DNA of 64,000 bases from the NCBI RefSeq assembly GCF_004114935.1, contig NZ_CP022221.1:2501001-2565000 (forward strand), given 5' to 3'. The DNA is from Bradyrhizobium zhanjiangense (GTDB lineage: Bacteria > Pseudomonadota > Alphaproteobacteria > Rhizobiales > Xanthobacteraceae). The notes beneath the pieces were generated by a model. The model had not been told where the DNA came from. It made no database searches and saw only the letters and a list, made by a program, of their open reading frames with translations. The position numbers were made by a program, and so were the translations under genes. Positions 34,394 through 41,754 of this stretch are shown here, in pieces (within the stretch, counting starts at the first letter, position 1; each line of letters opens with the position of its first letter).

Positions 34394-34498
34394 GAACGAA
34401 CCCGCTACGCGGGAGTGGGGGCAAGCCTGGTGAACTGAGGTGTCCTGTCTGAGAGGATGTTGGTCTTCGCACCACCCCTCTCAAGACAGGAGACCCAG

Positions 34499-35358
34499 AT
34501 GGCTACCATGAGCCCTCTTCGGCAGCGCATGATCGAGGACATGACGGTCCGCAATCTGTCGCCGTCGACTCAACAATCCTATATCTATGCGATCGCAAAG
34601 TTTAGCCGCCATTTCGGCTACGCCCCGGACCGGTTGAGTTTCGAGCAGGTCCGCGCCTATCAACTGCATCTCATCGGCCAAAAGCGTTCGTGGTCCCACA
34701 TCAATCAGGTGGCCTGCGCGCTGCGGTTCTTCTACGGCGTCACACTCGGGCAGACGGAGGCATTCGAGCGGATCATCGGTGGCCAGAAGCCTGACAAGCT
34801 CCCGCTCGTGCTTAGTGCCGAAGAGATCGAGCGCTTCCTGGACGCGGTTACAGGGGTGCGCAATCGCGTCGTGCTGGCGACGGCTTATGCGGCTGGCTTA
34901 CGGGCTAGTGAAGTCGTCCGCCTGAAGGTGAGCTCGATCGACAGCAAACGAATGTTGATCCACATCGAGAACGGCAAGGGCGGCAGGGATCGTTACGCGA
35001 TGCTTTCTCCGCGACTGCTGGAGATTCTGCGCACGTACTGGATGCGAGCCCGACCGGGCTATGGCTATTTCCAGGCCAAGACCCCAGTGAACATGTCAGC
35101 GTCCGCTGCGTCCAGGCGGCCTGCCGCGCCGCCCGCCGCCGCGCTCGGCTTGCCAAGCCGATTACTGTCCATACGCTCCGGCACTCGTTTGCGACCCATC
35201 TCCTGGAAAGCGGGATCGACATTCGCATCATTCAAGTTCTGCTCGGACATGCCGAGCTGGGATCGACCGCGCGCTACGCTCAGGTCGCGACCAATCTGCT
35301 CGCCCGCACGACCAGCCCATTCGATGGACTCTCCGTCAGGGTGATCCCACCCGACTGA
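34499..35358 (+). pseudogene. Tyrosine recombinase of the IS91-type element, one frameshift
   Basis: The first 190 residues (MATMSPLRQRMIEDMTVRNL, SAM-like core-binding domain, then [19 protein letters not shown] with the first catalytic Arg, and [16 protein letters not shown]) are in one frame. One base is lost near 35058, after which the true frame reads [30 protein letters not shown] (second catalytic Arg and His), [17 protein letters not shown] (nucleophile Tyr) and stops at 35356-35358. In the present frame the tail is Pro/Ala/Ser-rich nonsense ending at 35344. ATG 34499 has AGGAG upstream. The transposase gene follows within 10 bases. Confidence 0.85.
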
Positions 35359-35367
35359 GCTGCGCAT

Positions 35368-36561
35368 ATGCGCCCCGTGCTCGAGGTGGCGGACATCCTC
35401 CGCCGCCACGGCGGCGCGTTCCGTGCCGCGCAGGGTCCTCGGCTGTCCTCCGATCAGCGCCGTGCGATGGCGGCCATCGAGGCGTGTCGCACAGCGACGC
35501 TCGGCGGCCACGTCGAGCGGTGCGACGACTGCGGCCTGGTCCGCGTCGCCTATAACAGCTGTCGCGATCGGCACTGTCCAAAGTGCCAAGCGCTCGCGCG
35601 CGCCCAATGGCTCGTCGAGCGCCAGGCCGACCTGCTGCCGGTCCCCTATTTCCATGTCGTCTTCACCGTGCCGGCGCCCGTGGCCGCCATCGCGCTGCAG
35701 AACAAGGCGGTGGTCTACGACATCCTGCTCAAGGCAGCAGCCGAGACGATCCGTCTCATCAGCGCCGACCCGAAGCATCTCGGTGCCGAGACCGGGATGA
35801 TCGCCATTCTCCATACCTGGGGCCAGACCCTGACGCATCATCCACATGCCCATTGCCTCGTGCCAGGCGGCGGGATCGCCCCTGATGGAAGCTGGGTTCA
35901 TTGTCGCCCCGGCTTCTTCCTTCCCGTTCGCGTCCTGTCACGATTGTATCGTCGGCTATTCCTGGAGCGCCTGCAGGCGGCGTTCGATGGCACCAAGCTC
36001 CAATTCTTCGGCCATCTCGCGCACCTCGTCGAGCCAGCGGCATTCGCCAGCCATCTAAACGCCCTCCGCAAGGTCGAGTGGGTCGTCTACGCCAAGCGTC
36101 CCTTCGGCGGACCAGAACAGGTTCTGGCCTATCTTGGGCGCTACACCCATCGCGTTGCGATCGCCAACGGCCGGCTCCTTAGCTGTGACCAGGGCCACGT
36201 CCGCTTCCGGTGGAAGGATTATCGCGCTGGCAACAAATCCAAAGTGATGACACTCGACACTGAGGAGTTCCTTCGTCGCTTTCTGCTCCACATATTGCCG
36301 AAGGGGTTCCGCCGCATCCGTCATTTTGGTTTCCTGGCGAACGCCTGCCGCGCCGCCAAACTCGCGCGCATCCGAGCGGCGCTTGACGCGCCGCAGCCAC
36401 CTCCGCCTGCCGAAGCTGTCAACTATCGTGAGCGCTGCGCCATCCTCCTTGGTCACCGCCTCGACTTGTGCCCCATCTGCGGAGGCCGCATGGTCGAGAT
36501 TGGACCTGTGCCGCGTGCGCCAGCGCAGCGACGCGCAGCACCTCGCTGCGATACATCATGA
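35368..36561 (+). CDS. IS91-family transposase (HUH nuclease)
   Basis: The 397-residue protein starts with a zinc-finger region (CDDCGLVRVAYNSCRDRHCPKCQ, about residues 52-75), followed by the HUH motif HPHAH in LTHHPHAHCLVPGG and the region YLGRYTHRVAIAN with the active Tyr. Together these form the single-strand nuclease of IS91-type rolling-circle transposition. A C-terminal Cys pair (LCPICGG) adds another metal knuckle. The length matches the family and no interruption is seen. It is translationally close to the recombinase gene. The protein should nick and join at the ends of the element. Confidence 0.9.
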   Translation: MRPVLEVADILRRHGGAFRAAQGPRLSSDQRRAMAAIEACRTATLGGHVERCDDCGLVRVAYNSCRDRHCPKCQALARAQWLVERQADLLPVPYFHVVFTVPAPVAAIALQNKAVVYDILLKAAAETIRLISADPKHLGAETGMIAILHTWGQTLTHHPHAHCLVPGGGIAPDGSWVHCRPGFFLPVRVLSRLYRRLFLERLQAAFDGTKLQFFGHLAHLVEPAAFASHLNALRKVEWVVYAKRPFGGPEQVLAYLGRYTHRVAIANGRLLSCDQGHVRFRWKDYRAGNKSKVMTLDTEEFLRRFLLHILPKGFRRIRHFGFLANACRAAKLARIRAALDAPQPPPPAEAVNYRERCAILLGHRLDLCPICGGRMVEIGPVPRAPAQRRAAPRCDTS

Positions 36562-37070: not shown

Positions 37071-37427
37071 ATGCCGACGGAGAGGCTTGCGATGCGCCGT
37101 GTGCGCGATGTGATCAGGATGAAGGCGGCTGGACTGCCGAGCCGCGAGATTGCGCGGCGGATGGGCGCGGCGCCCTCGACAGTGCGGTTGACCATCCGGC
37201 GGTTCGAGGCCGCAGGCCTGAGCTGGCCGTTGCCCGACGAACTCACGGACGCGGCCCTGGAGGCCCGCCTGTTCGCCAAGACCGGCAACGGCAACCGGCA
37301 GGGTCACCGCCGCATCGCCGAGCCGACTGGCGGCGGTGCACCGCGAGCTCAAGCGCAAGCACGTGACGCTGTCGATCCTGTGGGAGGAGTACATTGCCGC
37401 CGAGCCCGGCGGATACCGGTACTCGCG
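37071..37427 (+). pseudogene. istA: IS21-family transposase IstA, 5' part
   Basis: The start MPTERLAMRRVRDVIRMKAAGLPSREIARR and the following helix-turn-helix (MGAAPSTVRLTIRRFEAAG) are typical of IstA. A one-base frameshift near 37310 moves the continuation (HRELKRKHVTLSILWEEYIA) into another frame, and the gene is then cut after codons for YSR by a recombinase-in-trio element at 37428. The gene resumes exactly at 40834. The gene is dead for two reasons: the frameshift and the insertion. Confidence 0.82.
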
Positions 37428-37554
37428 TTATGTTGCGGCCAGATTTATGTTGTGCGAGGAGCGATAATTGCGGGAGCCTGAGCTCTGCGGGCATTGTTCA
37501 CGCAACATAATTCGACGTCTGGGTAGCGAACCTTTTGTCCAATGGAGGCTCGCT

Positions 37555-38777
37555 ATGGATCAGACGATATATTCCATTCCCTTGACCGTACCCCACCGTG
37601 ATGACGCGCCATTCACCGACGAGCGGTACCGGTACCTTCGCCACTGTGCAGAAGCCGGTGCGACCGCAGCTTCTCTCAAGATCAAGCGCAACGAGCTGTT
37701 GCGGATTGCCGCACGTCTCGGTCCAGATGCTTCGCAGGGCATCGATATCGAGGCACTCCAACGGATCGCGACCGAGCGTCTGCGCCTGACGGGGGCTGCC
37801 ACCGCAGCACGAAGAGTGGTCGACATCGGACGGCCTTGGCTTCGATTTCTCGGTTGGTGGCGTGAACCAACCGTCGTGTTTCAGTACCAGAGCCAACTCG
37901 ACCAGTATGTGACATGGATGCGCAATGAGCGCGGATTCTCGCCATCGACGGTGGAGCAATGGAGCCGGATAATCGGCAGGTTCCTGCGCTGGTGCGACAA
38001 AACCAACCGGCAACTCAGGGACCTTCAGCCTGAAGACGTTGACGCCTATTTTGTCGCCCAGGCGACGGGACGATGGTCCCGCGTTTCGGTGGCCAACACA
38101 GCCTCTGCCTTGCGGGGATTTCTGCGCTACGCGGCAAAGCGGGGAATGTGTACGGACCGCTTAGCGGCCTCGATTTGCCGGCCTCGGCTTTATCGTCAGG
38201 AGTCGCTGCCGTATGCCCCAGAGTGGTTCGACGTGCAGCGCATGTTGGCCGACGCCGAGACTGACAACCCCGGGACATCCGCGATCGTGCGATCCTGCTG
38301 TTGCTCGCGGTCTACGGGATGCGCAGCGGCGAAGCGGCGGCATTGCGCCTTGATCAGATTGACTGGGCCGGTAGGACGCTACGGCTTTTCCGCCTGAAGC
38401 GCCGGCAGCCGCAGATCTATCCCCTGGTTCCCTCTGCGGCTGAGGCGCTCGCCCGCTACATCGACACGGTGCGGCCGCTATCATCGTGCCCGGAAGTGTT
38501 CCTCTGCATGCACGCGCCCCGTCGACCGTTGAAGGCAGGGAGCATTTATGATGTCGCCAACCGCAGATTTGTTGCACTTGGAATCGACGCTGCCCACCGC
38601 GGTGGCCATGCGTTGCGCCACGCCTGCGCCTCCCGGCTTCTCGCCGAAGGTCTGTCGATAAAGGAGATCGGGGACCATTTGGGACATCGCAGCGCGGCGT
38701 CAACCAGCATCTACGCCAAGGTGAACATGCAGGCGCTTCGCGAGGTCGGAGCGTTCGACCTGGGAGGCCTCCAATGA
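37555..38777 (+). pseudogene. RIT element recombinase A, one frameshift
   Basis: The first tyrosine recombinase of the trio would have about 407 residues. MDQTIYSIPLTVPHRDD begins at ATG 37555 with GGAGG seven bases upstream. The core-binding domain (WMRNERGFSPSTVEQWSRIIGRFL) is in the first frame. A single-base lesion near 38283 separates it from the catalytic domain, which shows YGMRSGEAAALRLDQID (first Arg), HALRHACASRLLAEG (His and second Arg) and LGHRSAASTSIYAKV (Tyr nucleophile). The stop at 38775-38777 overlaps the ATG of the next recombinase by four bases. Without the lesion the gene would be complete. Confidence 0.84.
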
Positions 38778-39716
38778 GGCTGACCCATGTTGTCGACGCC
38801 TATCTGGCCAAGCAGCGCTCACTGGGGGCGCGTTTCGAGTCGGCTGAGGTTCTGCTCCGTAGGTTCTGCCGAGCGATGGGCAATCGAGATATCGGCGAAG
38901 TCACCCCAGAGGCGGTAGCCGAGTTCCTCCAAGGCAAAGGATCGCTCAGTGCCACCTGGATGCTGCGATATAGGGTTTTGAGCGGCCTTTATCGATTCGC
39001 CATCAGTCGCGGGTACGCAGCATCCTCCCACTGCCGACATCGTTTCCAAAGCTGCTGCCGCAACAAACGCCCTATGTTTATTCCACGGAAGAACTGCGCC
39101 GCCTGTTGGACGCGACCTCGATCCTGGAGGTTGGGCATCGCCCTCATGTGCCAGCTATGTACCGTACGCTCCTCTTATTGCTGTACGGAAGCGGCATGCG
39201 CATTGGCGAGGCGCTTCGTTTGGTCCTGCAAGACGTGGATCTGACTGATCAGGTCATCACCGTCCGTGACACGAAGTTCTTCAAAACGCGCCTCGTGCCT
39301 ATCGGACCAAAGCTCAACCAGGAATTGGTCGAGTACGTCGAGCGCCGTCGCCGGCTCCCTCTGCCGCGCGGGCAAGAATCTCCATTATTCACTACGCGCG
39401 GCAGTCGACCGTGGCACTATGTGCGGGTCATCTCCTGGTTCAGCATGTCCGCCGGGCCGCCGGAATCAGTTGCCCTGTCGGCGAGCCTCGACCTCCACGG
39501 CTGCACGATATTCGCCACACAGCCGCGGTGCACCGGGTAATTGCATGGTATCGCTCCGGCCAGGAGGTGCAGCGACTGCTTCCGCAACTCGCCACCTACC
39601 TTGGCCACATCGATATCCGTTCAACCCAGCGCTATTTGCAGATGACGCCAGATCTCCTCCAGGCGGCCAGCGAGCGCTTTGCCCTGTACGCGATGGAGGC
39701 CGACCATGAAGGATAA
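38774..39716 (+). pseudogene. RIT element recombinase B, two frameshifts
   Basis: The second recombinase (about 312 residues when rebuilt) starts MRLTHVVDAYLAKQRSLGARF at the ATG overlapping the first gene. Its frame is lost near 39025, resumes in a second frame with YVYSTEELRRLLDATS and GSGMRIGEALRLVLQDVDL (first catalytic Arg), and shifts again near 39435. The last piece holds HDIRHTAAVHRVIAWY (His, Arg) and LGHIDIRSTQRYLQM (Tyr). It ends in CATGAAGGATAA at 39716, overlapping the start of recombinase C by 11 bases. Both lesions are single-base changes. Confidence 0.84.
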
Positions 39717-40701
39717 GAGCCTGCTTGGTCCGTGGATCCGGCGGTTCTTGCTGGAACATCTGGTCGCCGAGCGCAATCTTTCCCGCAACACCCAAGCCAG
39801 CTACCGCGACACGCTGACATTGTTGCTGCCGTTCGCCAGCAAGCAGGGAGGCTGCGCCATCGATCGCATGACCGTGGAAGAGCTGACGCCGGAAGTCGTC
39901 CGCAAGTTCCTGGACCACCTGGAGCGCGATCGCCGGTGCAGCGAGGTTACCCGCAACCAACGGCTGGCGACCATCCATTCACTGGCGCGCTTTATCGGGA
40001 CGCGTTCGCCGATCCACCTGGCCTGGTGTTCCGAGATACGGGCAGTGCCGTTCAAGAAGACGGCCAAGACCGCGATCGGATACCTCGAAAAGGCCGAGAT
40101 GGACGCGTTGCTAAATCAACCTGACAGACGCACGAGTCTTGGGGTGCGGGACCATGTTCTGCTGCTTTTCCTATACAACAGCGGTGCTCGCGCCGATGAG
40201 GCAGCAAAATTGACGGTCGGCAATCTCCAACTGGGTGCGTCTCCGTCAGTGCGACTTCACGGTAAGGGCAACAAGGTTAGAATCTGTCCATTGTGGTCAA
40301 CGACCGCAACCTCGTTGACTCGTCTTGTGGCCGACCGGAACAAAAGTGAAGCGGTCTTTCTCGGGCGGACGAACCAGCCTTTGACGCGCTTCGGAATACA
40401 CCGTCTCGTGACGCAATATGCCGCCATGGCGGGCGAAACGGTGCCGACGTTGGCGACGAAGCGCGTAAGCCCACATACGGTTCGGCACACAACGGCGGTG
40501 CACCTGCTGCGCGCCGGCGTCGACATCAACACGATCCGTGCTTGGCTGGGCCACGTGTCATTAGACACCACGCACATCTATGCTGAAGTCGACCTGGAAA
40601 TGAAAGCAGAGGCGTTAGCCAGGGTCGACATCAGCAGTCTGAGGCCGCCGCCTCGGCAACCCTCTCTCCCGTCGTTGATGGCATTCCTGAAGGCCCTGTA
40701 G
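39706..40701 (+). CDS. RIT element recombinase C (tyrosine recombinase)
   Basis: The third recombinase (331 residues) is intact. The N-terminal core-binding domain (FLLEHLVAERNLSRNTQASYRDTLTLLLPF) is followed by the catalytic domain with YNSGARADEAAKLTVGNL (Arg), a Lys-bearing beta-hairpin (LHGKGNKVRICPLW), HTVRHTTAVHLLRAG (His and Arg) and LGHVSLDTTHIYAEVD (Tyr nucleophile). ATG 39706 lies inside the end of recombinase B, so translation is coupled. The protein is a phage-integrase-type enzyme that would cut and join DNA at the ends of the element, probably together with A and B, whose individual roles are not established. Confidence 0.92.
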   Translation: MKDKSLLGPWIRRFLLEHLVAERNLSRNTQASYRDTLTLLLPFASKQGGCAIDRMTVEELTPEVVRKFLDHLERDRRCSEVTRNQRLATIHSLARFIGTRSPIHLAWCSEIRAVPFKKTAKTAIGYLEKAEMDALLNQPDRRTSLGVRDHVLLLFLYNSGARADEAAKLTVGNLQLGASPSVRLHGKGNKVRICPLWSTTATSLTRLVADRNKSEAVFLGRTNQPLTRFGIHRLVTQYAAMAGETVPTLATKRVSPHTVRHTTAVHLLRAGVDINTIRAWLGHVSLDTTHIYAEVDLEMKAEALARVDISSLRPPPRQPSLPSLMAFLKAL

Positions 40702-40801
40702 GTCGAAAGGTCACACTCTTATGTTGCGGAGCGAGCCGAGGAAATTGGCGCAATCCTTGGCTCGCTCCAGCAGCGACAACATAAATCTGGCGGCAACATA
40801 A

Positions 40802-40833
40802 CGCGAGATATGTTCACGATCACATATCTCGCG
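40802..40833. repeat. Palindrome between the RIT right end and the resumed istA
   Basis: CGCGAGATATGT (40802-40813) and ACATATCTCGCG (40822-40833) are perfect inverted complements around TCACGATC. Its outer CGCGAG is also the inverted complement of the CTCGCG that precedes the left RIT end, so the inverted repeats of the element effectively extend by 6 bases. The segment is not part of istA, as its removal restores the frame. Confidence 0.85.
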
Positions 40834-41754
40834 CTTCTGCGAGCTTTACCGCGCCTGGGAGGGCCGCCTGTCGGTGACGATGCGCCAGTCGCATGCGGCC
40901 GGCGACAAATTGTTCGTCGACTACGCGGGCGACGGCGTGCCGGTGGTGGTCGACCGCCTCACCGGCGAGCGGAGGACGGCGCAGGTCTTCGTCGCCGTGC
41001 TCGGCGCCTCGAACTTCACCTATGCGCAGGCGACGTGGACCCAGGGGCTTGCCGACTGGATCAGCGCCCACGTCGGCACCTTGGCGGCGATCGACGGCGT
41101 GCCGGCGCTGCTGGTGCCCGACAACACCAAGGTCGCGGTCATCAAGGCGAGCCTCTACGACCCGCAGATCAATCGCACCTATGCGGAGATGGCCGCGCAT
41201 TACGGCACGGCCGTCTTGCCGGCGCGACCACGCAAGCCGCGCGACAAGGCCAAGGTCGAGCAAGCCGTCCTCATCATCGAGCGCTGGCTGCTCGGCCGCC
41301 TGCGCCACCGCGTCTTCTACAGCCTCGCCGAGGTCAACGCAGCGATCGGCGAGTTGCTGACCAGGCTCAACGAGGAGCGGCTCGGCGTGACGCGCCGTCG
41401 GCTGCTCGAGGAGGTCGACCGGCCGGCGCTCAAGCCGTTGCCGGCGAGCCCCTACGTGCTCGCCGAGTGGCGTATCCGCCGGTCAGCCTCGACTACCACG
41501 TCGAGGTGGAGAAGCACTACTACAGCGTTCCGCATCGCTTCGCGCGTGCCGAGGTCGAGGTCCGGTTCACCGCCCGCACCGTCGAGATCTTCCACAAGGG
41601 CGAGCGGATTGCCGCGCATCAGCGCATGAGCGGCAATCACAAGCATACCACCGTGCCGGAGCACATGGCCTCCAGCCATCGCCGCTACGCCGGCTGGACC
41701 ATCGCGCGCATCCGCCAGGACGCCGCTGCGATCGGCCCGGCGACCAGCGCGTAG
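40834..41754 (+). pseudogene. istA: IS21-family transposase IstA, 3' part, frameshifted and truncated
   Basis: The gene resumes with [20 protein letters not shown] and the catalytic core: [14 protein letters not shown] (first Asp), [14 protein letters not shown] (second Asp) and [20 protein letters not shown] (Glu region). A frameshift near 41460 moves the C-terminal part ([36 protein letters not shown] and RRYAGWTIARIRQDA) into another frame, ending at 41754. The last about 60 residues and the whole istB ATPase gene are missing, so this IS21-family element is a 5'-end remnant. Confidence 0.84.

Follow-up and report, generated by a model that had tools for sequence, protein, structure and literature searches.

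The window considered here, a 64,000-nucleotide stretch of the Bradyrhizobium zhanjiangense genome (contig NZ_CP022221.1, positions 2,501,001 to 2,565,000), harbors at positions 37422-40833 a recombinase in trio (RIT) element, whose three tyrosine recombinase genes, ritA, ritB, and ritC, are enclosed by inverted repeats and which splits an IS21-family istA gene between the codons for YSR and FCELYR (Table 1). The inverted repeats (37422-37453 versus 40776-40807) match at 31 of 32 bases (97%), and both features used to assign the element to the RIT class, the gene order ritA-ritB-ritC and flanking terminal inverted repeats (TIRs), are present. Three adjacent, overlapping tyrosine recombinase genes termed A, B, and C, terminal inverted repeats, multiple copies per genome, and insertion into transposase genes are likewise known of RIT elements described earlier (Van Houdt et al. 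2012). A first-pass annotation of this DNA had correctly recognized the trio between its repeats, the RIT nature of the element, its istA target, the insertion unit of 37428-40833, and the 6-mer CTCGCG, which stands both before the left end and after a palindrome that follows the right end. Its description of the latter as a perfect palindrome of 32 bases requires amendment, as two 12-nucleotide (nt) arms (40802-40813 and 40822-40833) surround an unpaired loop of 8 nt; in composition, the palindrome is a constant 20-bp core, hereafter the linker, with a 6-mer on either side. When 37428-40833 is left out, the two istA parts read through the junction in frame; the claim that this deletion restores the gene thus stands locally and fails elsewhere in istA, where additional frame breaks occur. 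Frame breaks are also present in ritA and ritB of this copy.

Table 1. Features of the RIT insertion and of the interrupted istA gene (positions in the window)
Feature	Position	Strand	Basis
istA 5' part (IS21-family, target; own frame breaks)	37071..37427	+	uninterrupted homologues
6-mer T' CTCGCG at the RIT side; equals the native 6-mer of uninterrupted istA with left arm taccggta	37422..37427	+	
TIR-L, 26 bp	37428..37453	+	
ritA (frame broken here; open in L010, L012, and L014)	37468..38777	+	
ritB (frame broken here; open in the other six copies)	38774..39716	+	
ritC, 331 amino acids (aa), open	39706..40701	+	
TIR-R, 26 bp	40776..40801	+	
6-mer X CGCGAG, between TIR-R and linker	40802..40807	+	
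Linker core ATATGTTCACGATCACATAT, 20-bp palindrome, element-borne	40808..40827	+	
6-mer Y' CTCGCG, past the linker	40828..40833	+	
istA 3' part	40834..41754	+	

The extra palindrome of the window copy is not a one-off scar. The genome to which the window belongs (9.34 Mb, one contig) contains seven near-identical RIT copies (L009 to L015, also numbered L001 to L007 for the same places in the same order, the window copy being L001 and L009), which differ by three substitutions and single-base indels and all of which occupy the identical istA position, YSR^FC. Four of these copies lie in the direction of istA and three in the opposite direction, and the core ATATGTTCACGATCACATAT is located on the istA 3' side of all seven, and thus beyond ritC in four and beyond ritA in three. 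The linker loop, however, reads TTCACGATCA along the RIT direction in every case. Because the linker may be found on either gene side yet retains a constant direction relative to the RIT, it is element DNA, which would be situated between both ends in a circle with the order TIR-R, 6 nt, linker, 6 nt, TIR-L. In a search of the entire 9.34 Mb that tolerated three mismatches at most, the core occurred exactly seven times, each time adjoining a RIT copy and never without one, and a control pattern returned no match. Moreover, the seven copies are distributed over three istA types, throughout which the 20-bp core is constant; by this comparison, it is the flanking 6-mers alone that look target-like and not the core.

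Of the seven copies, L010, L012, and L014 retain all three rit genes open (449, 314, and 340 aa, longest reading). The proteins of L012 best match, in order, the A, B, and C profiles described below, and the Pfam Phage_integrase domain was detected in all three proteins of a relative, L045. Copies L003, L004, L006, and L007 share approximately 550 bases of common IS21 flank and diverge further out, and they therefore represent separate loci, whereas L001 and L002 agree throughout a compared stretch of 1.5 kb and might go back to the duplication of a single segment. L013 resides in another IS21, whose first 500 bases are approximately 80% alike to those of the IS21 around L009; the outer flank is the same. 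Three of the seven copies (L009, L010, and L013) are clustered within approximately 110 kb (G000:C1:2431358-2541833) and have a common outer flank. L012 (G000:C1:2166-5574) is the sole own-genome copy with a damaged junction, its linker-side 6-mer seemingly being three bases short.

Uninterrupted istA genes were examined at 31 loci, comprising L050 and L056 of the same genome and 29 from related genomes (the best listed among 257 genomes searched). L050 and L056 align across the junction, and the palindrome is absent from both. Two loci did not yield a parse, namely L050, due to a frame break, and L201, which starts within the gene; the remaining 29, L056 included, read uninterrupted through YSRFC without the palindrome, so that the empty istA with a palindrome which the first-pass annotation had named as the case against it was not encountered among them. 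The native 6-mer in these 29 genes is CTCGCG in 14, TTCGCG in 14, and TAGCCG in one, and TTCGCG accompanies the left arm tatcgcta in 14 of 14 istA copies.

Related RITs at the istA position were sought across the genus, in which a match was obtained in 30 of 265 genomes (own genome counted); at most two candidates were scored per genome, and copies are thus undercounted. Matches were present in eleven plasmid records, while a family-level TIR pattern matched in 5 of 391 genomes and added few copies. Copies with readable ends sit at the YSR codons of istA, with the exception of L023 and L025, each of which has a single readable end and an unrecognised flank. The linker is again on the istA 3' side in L016 to L019, L021, and L046, and half a linker is left in L024. 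Plasmids pTi932 and pTiK1/93 each hold one normal RIT and one linker-less RIT, the latter between IS21 5' halves that are 98-99% alike. A flip of the RIT between these two plasmids was considered and rejected, the records being stored on opposite strands and the arrangement being the same. The linker-less copies L045 (on an S. fredii plasmid), L182 and L183 (on pTi932 and pTiK1/93), L020, and L022 appear as if two IS21 elements had been joined head to head, and these head-to-head IS21 copies hint that RIT exchange may rearrange replicons.

To assess how general a one-sided linker might be, distant RITs were collected through an alignment scan of public genomes with RitC, which gave at least 574 confirmed relatives, the best 80 of which were kept; nine plasmid loci, hand-picked from 60 listed of 2,674 records, brought the set to 89 loci. 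Profiles for A, B, and C were built from L045 and eight of the nine plasmid loci, and 51 of the 89 RitC loci were found to hold the trio (50 automatically and L097 by hand). These loci span Pseudomonadota, Acidobacteriota, Bacillota, and other groups. Among the 51 trios, 11 had no inverted repeat, 2 had an overlong one (L064 and L083), and 38 had a short TIR pair, a few of these being chance pairs; the 34 of these 38 with at least 32 bases beyond a TIR were subjected to a palindrome test. The best 20-bp palindrome beside a TIR attained at least 9 of 10 pairs at 21 of the 34 loci, after the misplaced L104 had been removed from 22, as opposed to 37 of 3,800 random positions of the same loci. A score of at least 7 was reached by 1,007 of the 3,800 controls, and low scores consequently weigh little. 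A linker that the script had missed or scored low is visible by eye at L066, L071, L081, and L101; L066 and L071 counted as misses, since no TIR pair had been detected for them, and the automatic matches at L101 and L104 were wrong and were excluded from the support. In the comparison of other RIT junctions suggested by the first-pass annotation, a palindrome is present at many loci and lacking at L020, L022, L045, L047, L086, and L090, which are weighed below.

Flanks, 6-mers, and linkers were tabulated in 32 rows, reduced to 28 upon removal of four spurious second rows (L067, L101, L102, and L104), in which the two linker sides are equally represented, with 14 rows each for ritC and ritA. 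The TIR start was preset six bases from the linker in this tabulation, and four of the rows (L081, L083, L101, and L104) were placed by hand. When the spacing was tested across the 28 rows, the better linker arm matched TIR-like sequence at a mean of 5.57 of 7 positions at a gap of 6, where 21 of 28 rows reached at least 5 of 7; for every other gap between 0 and 12, the mean lay in the range of 1.25 to 2.25. Single linker arms compared with the TIR start matched at 5.3 and 5.6 of 7 (controls, 1.67). A motif shared by the target arms and the TIR arms was also sought and discarded, the values being 1.2 and 2.2 of 7 versus a control of 1.67. On plasmid pHG1, the proteins at the positions of PHG129-131, PHG134-136, and PHG140/141 (numbers assigned here from gene order and PMC2864759; the tags in the record differ) have as their best matches the A, B, and C profiles that the L012 proteins also matched best. 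The copy taken as PHG140/141, whose annotation comprises only ritA and ritB, displays by eye CATAA, CGCGGT, TCATGCCGCTAGCGGCATGA, and ACCGCG alongside, which is the same layout.

The targets of the surveyed RITs, as named from the annotations of relatives or from reading of the flanks, include IS21 istA, IS66 transposase genes, ArdC-like zincin genes, and an integron-integrase-like gene (labels assigned by hand for L068, L095, L099, L101, L102, L104, and L109). At L101, L102, L109, and L112, the RIT is positioned at the LRH codons, a catalytic motif, of tyrosine recombinase or integron-integrase-like genes, an observation made by hand for the first three. RIT insertion in transposase and radC genes, and in IS66 and radC genes, is reported in the sections used of PMC3414803 and PMC2864759, respectively.

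The two outer 6-mers, T' beside the TIR and Y' beyond the linker, are informative where they differ, as uninterrupted relatives may then reveal which of them is native to the target. T' differs from Y' in 14 of the 28 rows, as well as in L013, L015, and L021, and ten of these loci were tried (those outside the ten being L076, L095, L100, L103, L109, L122, and L021). The native 6-mer could be inferred in seven of the ten, and in all seven it equals T', with the foreign 6-mer beyond the linker (two-sided sign test, calculated by hand, 0.016). The loci and their relatives are L069 (empty IS66 copies L220 and L221, identical flanks), L067 (L222, identical flanks; a second relative, L223, shows a third 6-mer), L110 (L215 and L216; L214 is off by one base), L097 (L218 and L219), L120 (L224, 79% alike), L092 (L225, 83% alike), and L015, whose T', TTCGCG, is the 6-mer that accompanies the left arm of L015 in the 14 of 14 copies mentioned above. 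Outside the seven, L109 and L112 fit the rule by hand, as the TIR-side 6-mer alone keeps the LRH codons. The notion of target-like sequence in the palindrome is thus upheld for the 6-mers only, and even there the outer 6-mer is not the target's own in the seven resolved loci. In the window copy, Y' would by the rule in its relatives have been brought from a previous site; here it equals T' and the two are indistinguishable. Chains of descent that are consistent with the rule could be drawn within the genome, L013 deriving from a circle of L009 or L010, L015 from L012, and L014 from L011.

An element-borne linker, a fixed target, the use of both sides, a spacing of six bases, and, in the resolved cases, the 6-mer rule are what is read from the sequence. 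As a whole, these data are best explained, with a probability that we place at roughly three in four, by a linker-bearing circle with two inverted crossover sites and strand-biased integration. The mobile unit would be larger than the RIT between its terminal repeats, and the joint of the circle would consist of TIR-R, X6, the 20-bp palindromic linker, Y6, and TIR-L, i.e., two back-to-back inverted crossover sites, each presumed to be a 6-bp spacer flanked by a TIR arm and by a linker arm of like sequence. Integration could proceed via either Y or X, so that the linker would come to lie beyond ritC or ritA about equally often, and within this subfamily it hits one and the same 6 bp in a conserved run of codons. 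In a strand-biased exchange, the target would retain its own 6-mer at the TIR, the far side would receive the linker together with the 6-mer of the donor, and the linker-side 6-mer would thereby mark the previous target, from which the foreign 6-mer is believed to stem. The crossover would effectively be located at the edge between 6-mer and TIR, making the inserted unit exactly 37428-40833. The linker-less copies at the istA site are proposed to have arisen when a second target was engaged through the inner site, X. The circle, the assignment of the recombinases to their respective sites, and the strand-biased chemistry are features that we infer. The layout defines the ends of RITs, their insertion unit, their crossover 6-mers, and a testable strand-bias rule; RIT subfamilies are seen to occupy motifs that are conserved in mobile genes of other kinds (IS21, IS66, integrase, and ArdC-like), and the 6-mers offer a means of tracing past RIT jumps.

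Several observations weigh against this model. No circle, excision, or transposition has been observed. The first-pass annotation had named RITs without a palindrome as contrary cases, and such RITs exist: L086 and L090 are clear misses, with TIRs and no linker, which the model leaves unexplained, and L020, L022, L045, and L047 lack a linker and have both TIRs abutting istA 5' halves, an arrangement for which the two-site model can account. Its reciprocal counterpart, a linker between two 3' halves, was sought with a single pattern solely in the three plasmids holding L045, L046, and L047 and did not turn up; the search returned normal insertions only in two of the plasmids and nothing in the third. 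In L018 and L019, the linker loop is reversed relative to the RIT. With regard to the 6-mer rule, L015 was assigned from its left arm only, its right arm being found with both 6-mers, and among the loci that did not resolve, L112 matched remote integron integrases only and the nearest match for L081 is itself occupied by a RIT. The relatives of L013 (approximately 82% alike in the 5' part and 85% in the 3' part) carry CTCGCG or TTCGCG, never its T', CAGCCG, and its Y' is CTCGCG, a 6-mer of those relatives; L013 could accordingly be an exception to the rule. Finally, 3 of the 28 rows (L069, L097, and L112), together with L015, show an X that complements T' but does not complement Y', a feature that the simple model neither requires nor explains, and X, T', and Y' are all different in 9 of the 28 rows.

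An alternative for the nature of the exchange is that the joint acts as a folded single strand, in which X would pair with Y and the linker would form the tip of a hairpin, one strand being exchanged and then copied. The integron attC site, to which such a joint would be comparable, is likewise a palindromic recombination site that is used by a tyrosine recombinase; RITs differ from attC in their two equivalent crossover 6-mers and in having protein-coding motifs as targets. The joint would form one long inverted repeat centred on the linker, and the 6-mer rule suggests a single-strand bias, both of which suit such a mechanism. X and Y' differ in many loci, however. We regard this explanation as unlikely. 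A linker-bearing circle that integrates by an ordinary reciprocal exchange of both strands, with a 6-bp heteroduplex resolved at random, would result in identical anatomy, and the integrase catalytic domain in all three proteins of L045 is in keeping with it, as might be L013, if the native 6-mer is on the other side in that case. Random resolution nevertheless predicts the native 6-mer on either side, whereas it was encountered on the TIR side in all seven resolved loci (the sign test given above), and this route is accordingly judged to be distinctly doubtful. That the insertion generated the palindrome by copying target sequence into an inverted repeat, leaving a hairpin scar, was the reading of the first-pass annotation, which had also allowed that the insertion carried the hairpin; the second option is the one retained here. 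The outer 6-mers of the window copy do correspond to the SR codons of the target, but for the core the scar reading is refuted and retains very little credibility: the 20 bp are identical in seven copies across three istA types, follow the RIT in direction, are missing from the 29 parsed istA genes, and have equivalents in RITs at unrelated targets. A palindrome that is the target gene's own, or a separate miniature element marking the target, would account for its place on the istA 3' side in seven of seven own-genome copies regardless of RIT direction, and yet it is hardly conceivable, as the loop direction tracks the RIT and not istA in all seven and the palindrome never occurs without a RIT in this genome and is missing from the uninterrupted targets examined.

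Extended to RITs in general, the proposal would be a two-armed joint with two inverted crossover sites sharing a 20-bp palindrome, from either side of which one exchanged strand would be copied in; the 6-mers would record the last targets, and exchange at a second site would rearrange replicons and leave linker-less copies. This generalization is tentative, and we rate it at somewhat short of even odds. The 2012 account (PMC3414803), in the portions consulted, mentions a palindromic sequence that overlaps an inverted repeat, as well as variation of the RIT ends; it explains neither, and its authors could not fit the ends to known recombinase sites. Neither a one-sided linker nor a 6-mer rule for RITs is stated in the parts used of PMC3414803, PMC10214605, PMC5385486, PMC8138268, or PMC2864759; Ricker et al. 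2013 and Van Houdt et al. 2009 may describe the palindrome further. RitA is reported to possess a pair of core-binding domains, and RitC an additional helix at its C-terminus (PMC8138268, in the excerpt used). The Discussion of PMC10214605 (2023) notes that RIT transposition has, to its authors' knowledge, never been reproduced, and Table 1 of that paper marks RITs as not tested for target specificity, empty sites, or movement.

Strand-biased circularizing integrative elements (SEs) and Tn554 present a parallel, as their insertions are bordered by 6 bp of the target on one side and by 6 bp of the donor on the opposite side (PMC10214605, sections used). The native and donor 6 bp are at opposite ends in seven of seven resolved RIT loci, which supports the view that RITs work like these elements and not that they belong among them. 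SE genes are IntA, Tfp, IntB, and Srap and those of Tn554 are TnpA, TnpB, and TnpC, as opposed to ritA, ritB, and ritC, and a palindromic linker able to lie at either end is not described for SEs or Tn554 in the portions considered of PMC10214605. The SE gene set was not recovered in intact copies, where three recombinase genes fill the space between the repeats (counting open reading frames [ORFs] that run with the RIT and encode 140 aa or more; no Srap profile search was made). GInts resemble RITs in having three integrases in one operon, circular forms, and variable attachment sequences (PMC5385486, as excerpted), but they comprise four genes and a large cargo, whereas the RIT described here has three genes and no cargo.

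TIR-L of the window copy (37428-37453) contains TTATGTTG in two direct copies, at 37428-37435 and 37445-37452, 17 bases apart, and tandem motifs resembling this pair were seen in the TIRs of surveyed RITs; they are perhaps two recombinase binding sites. Elsewhere in the window, at 34457-36561, a tyrosine recombinase gene is followed by an IS91-like transposase gene, apparently constituting an IS91-type element (named from its ORFs).

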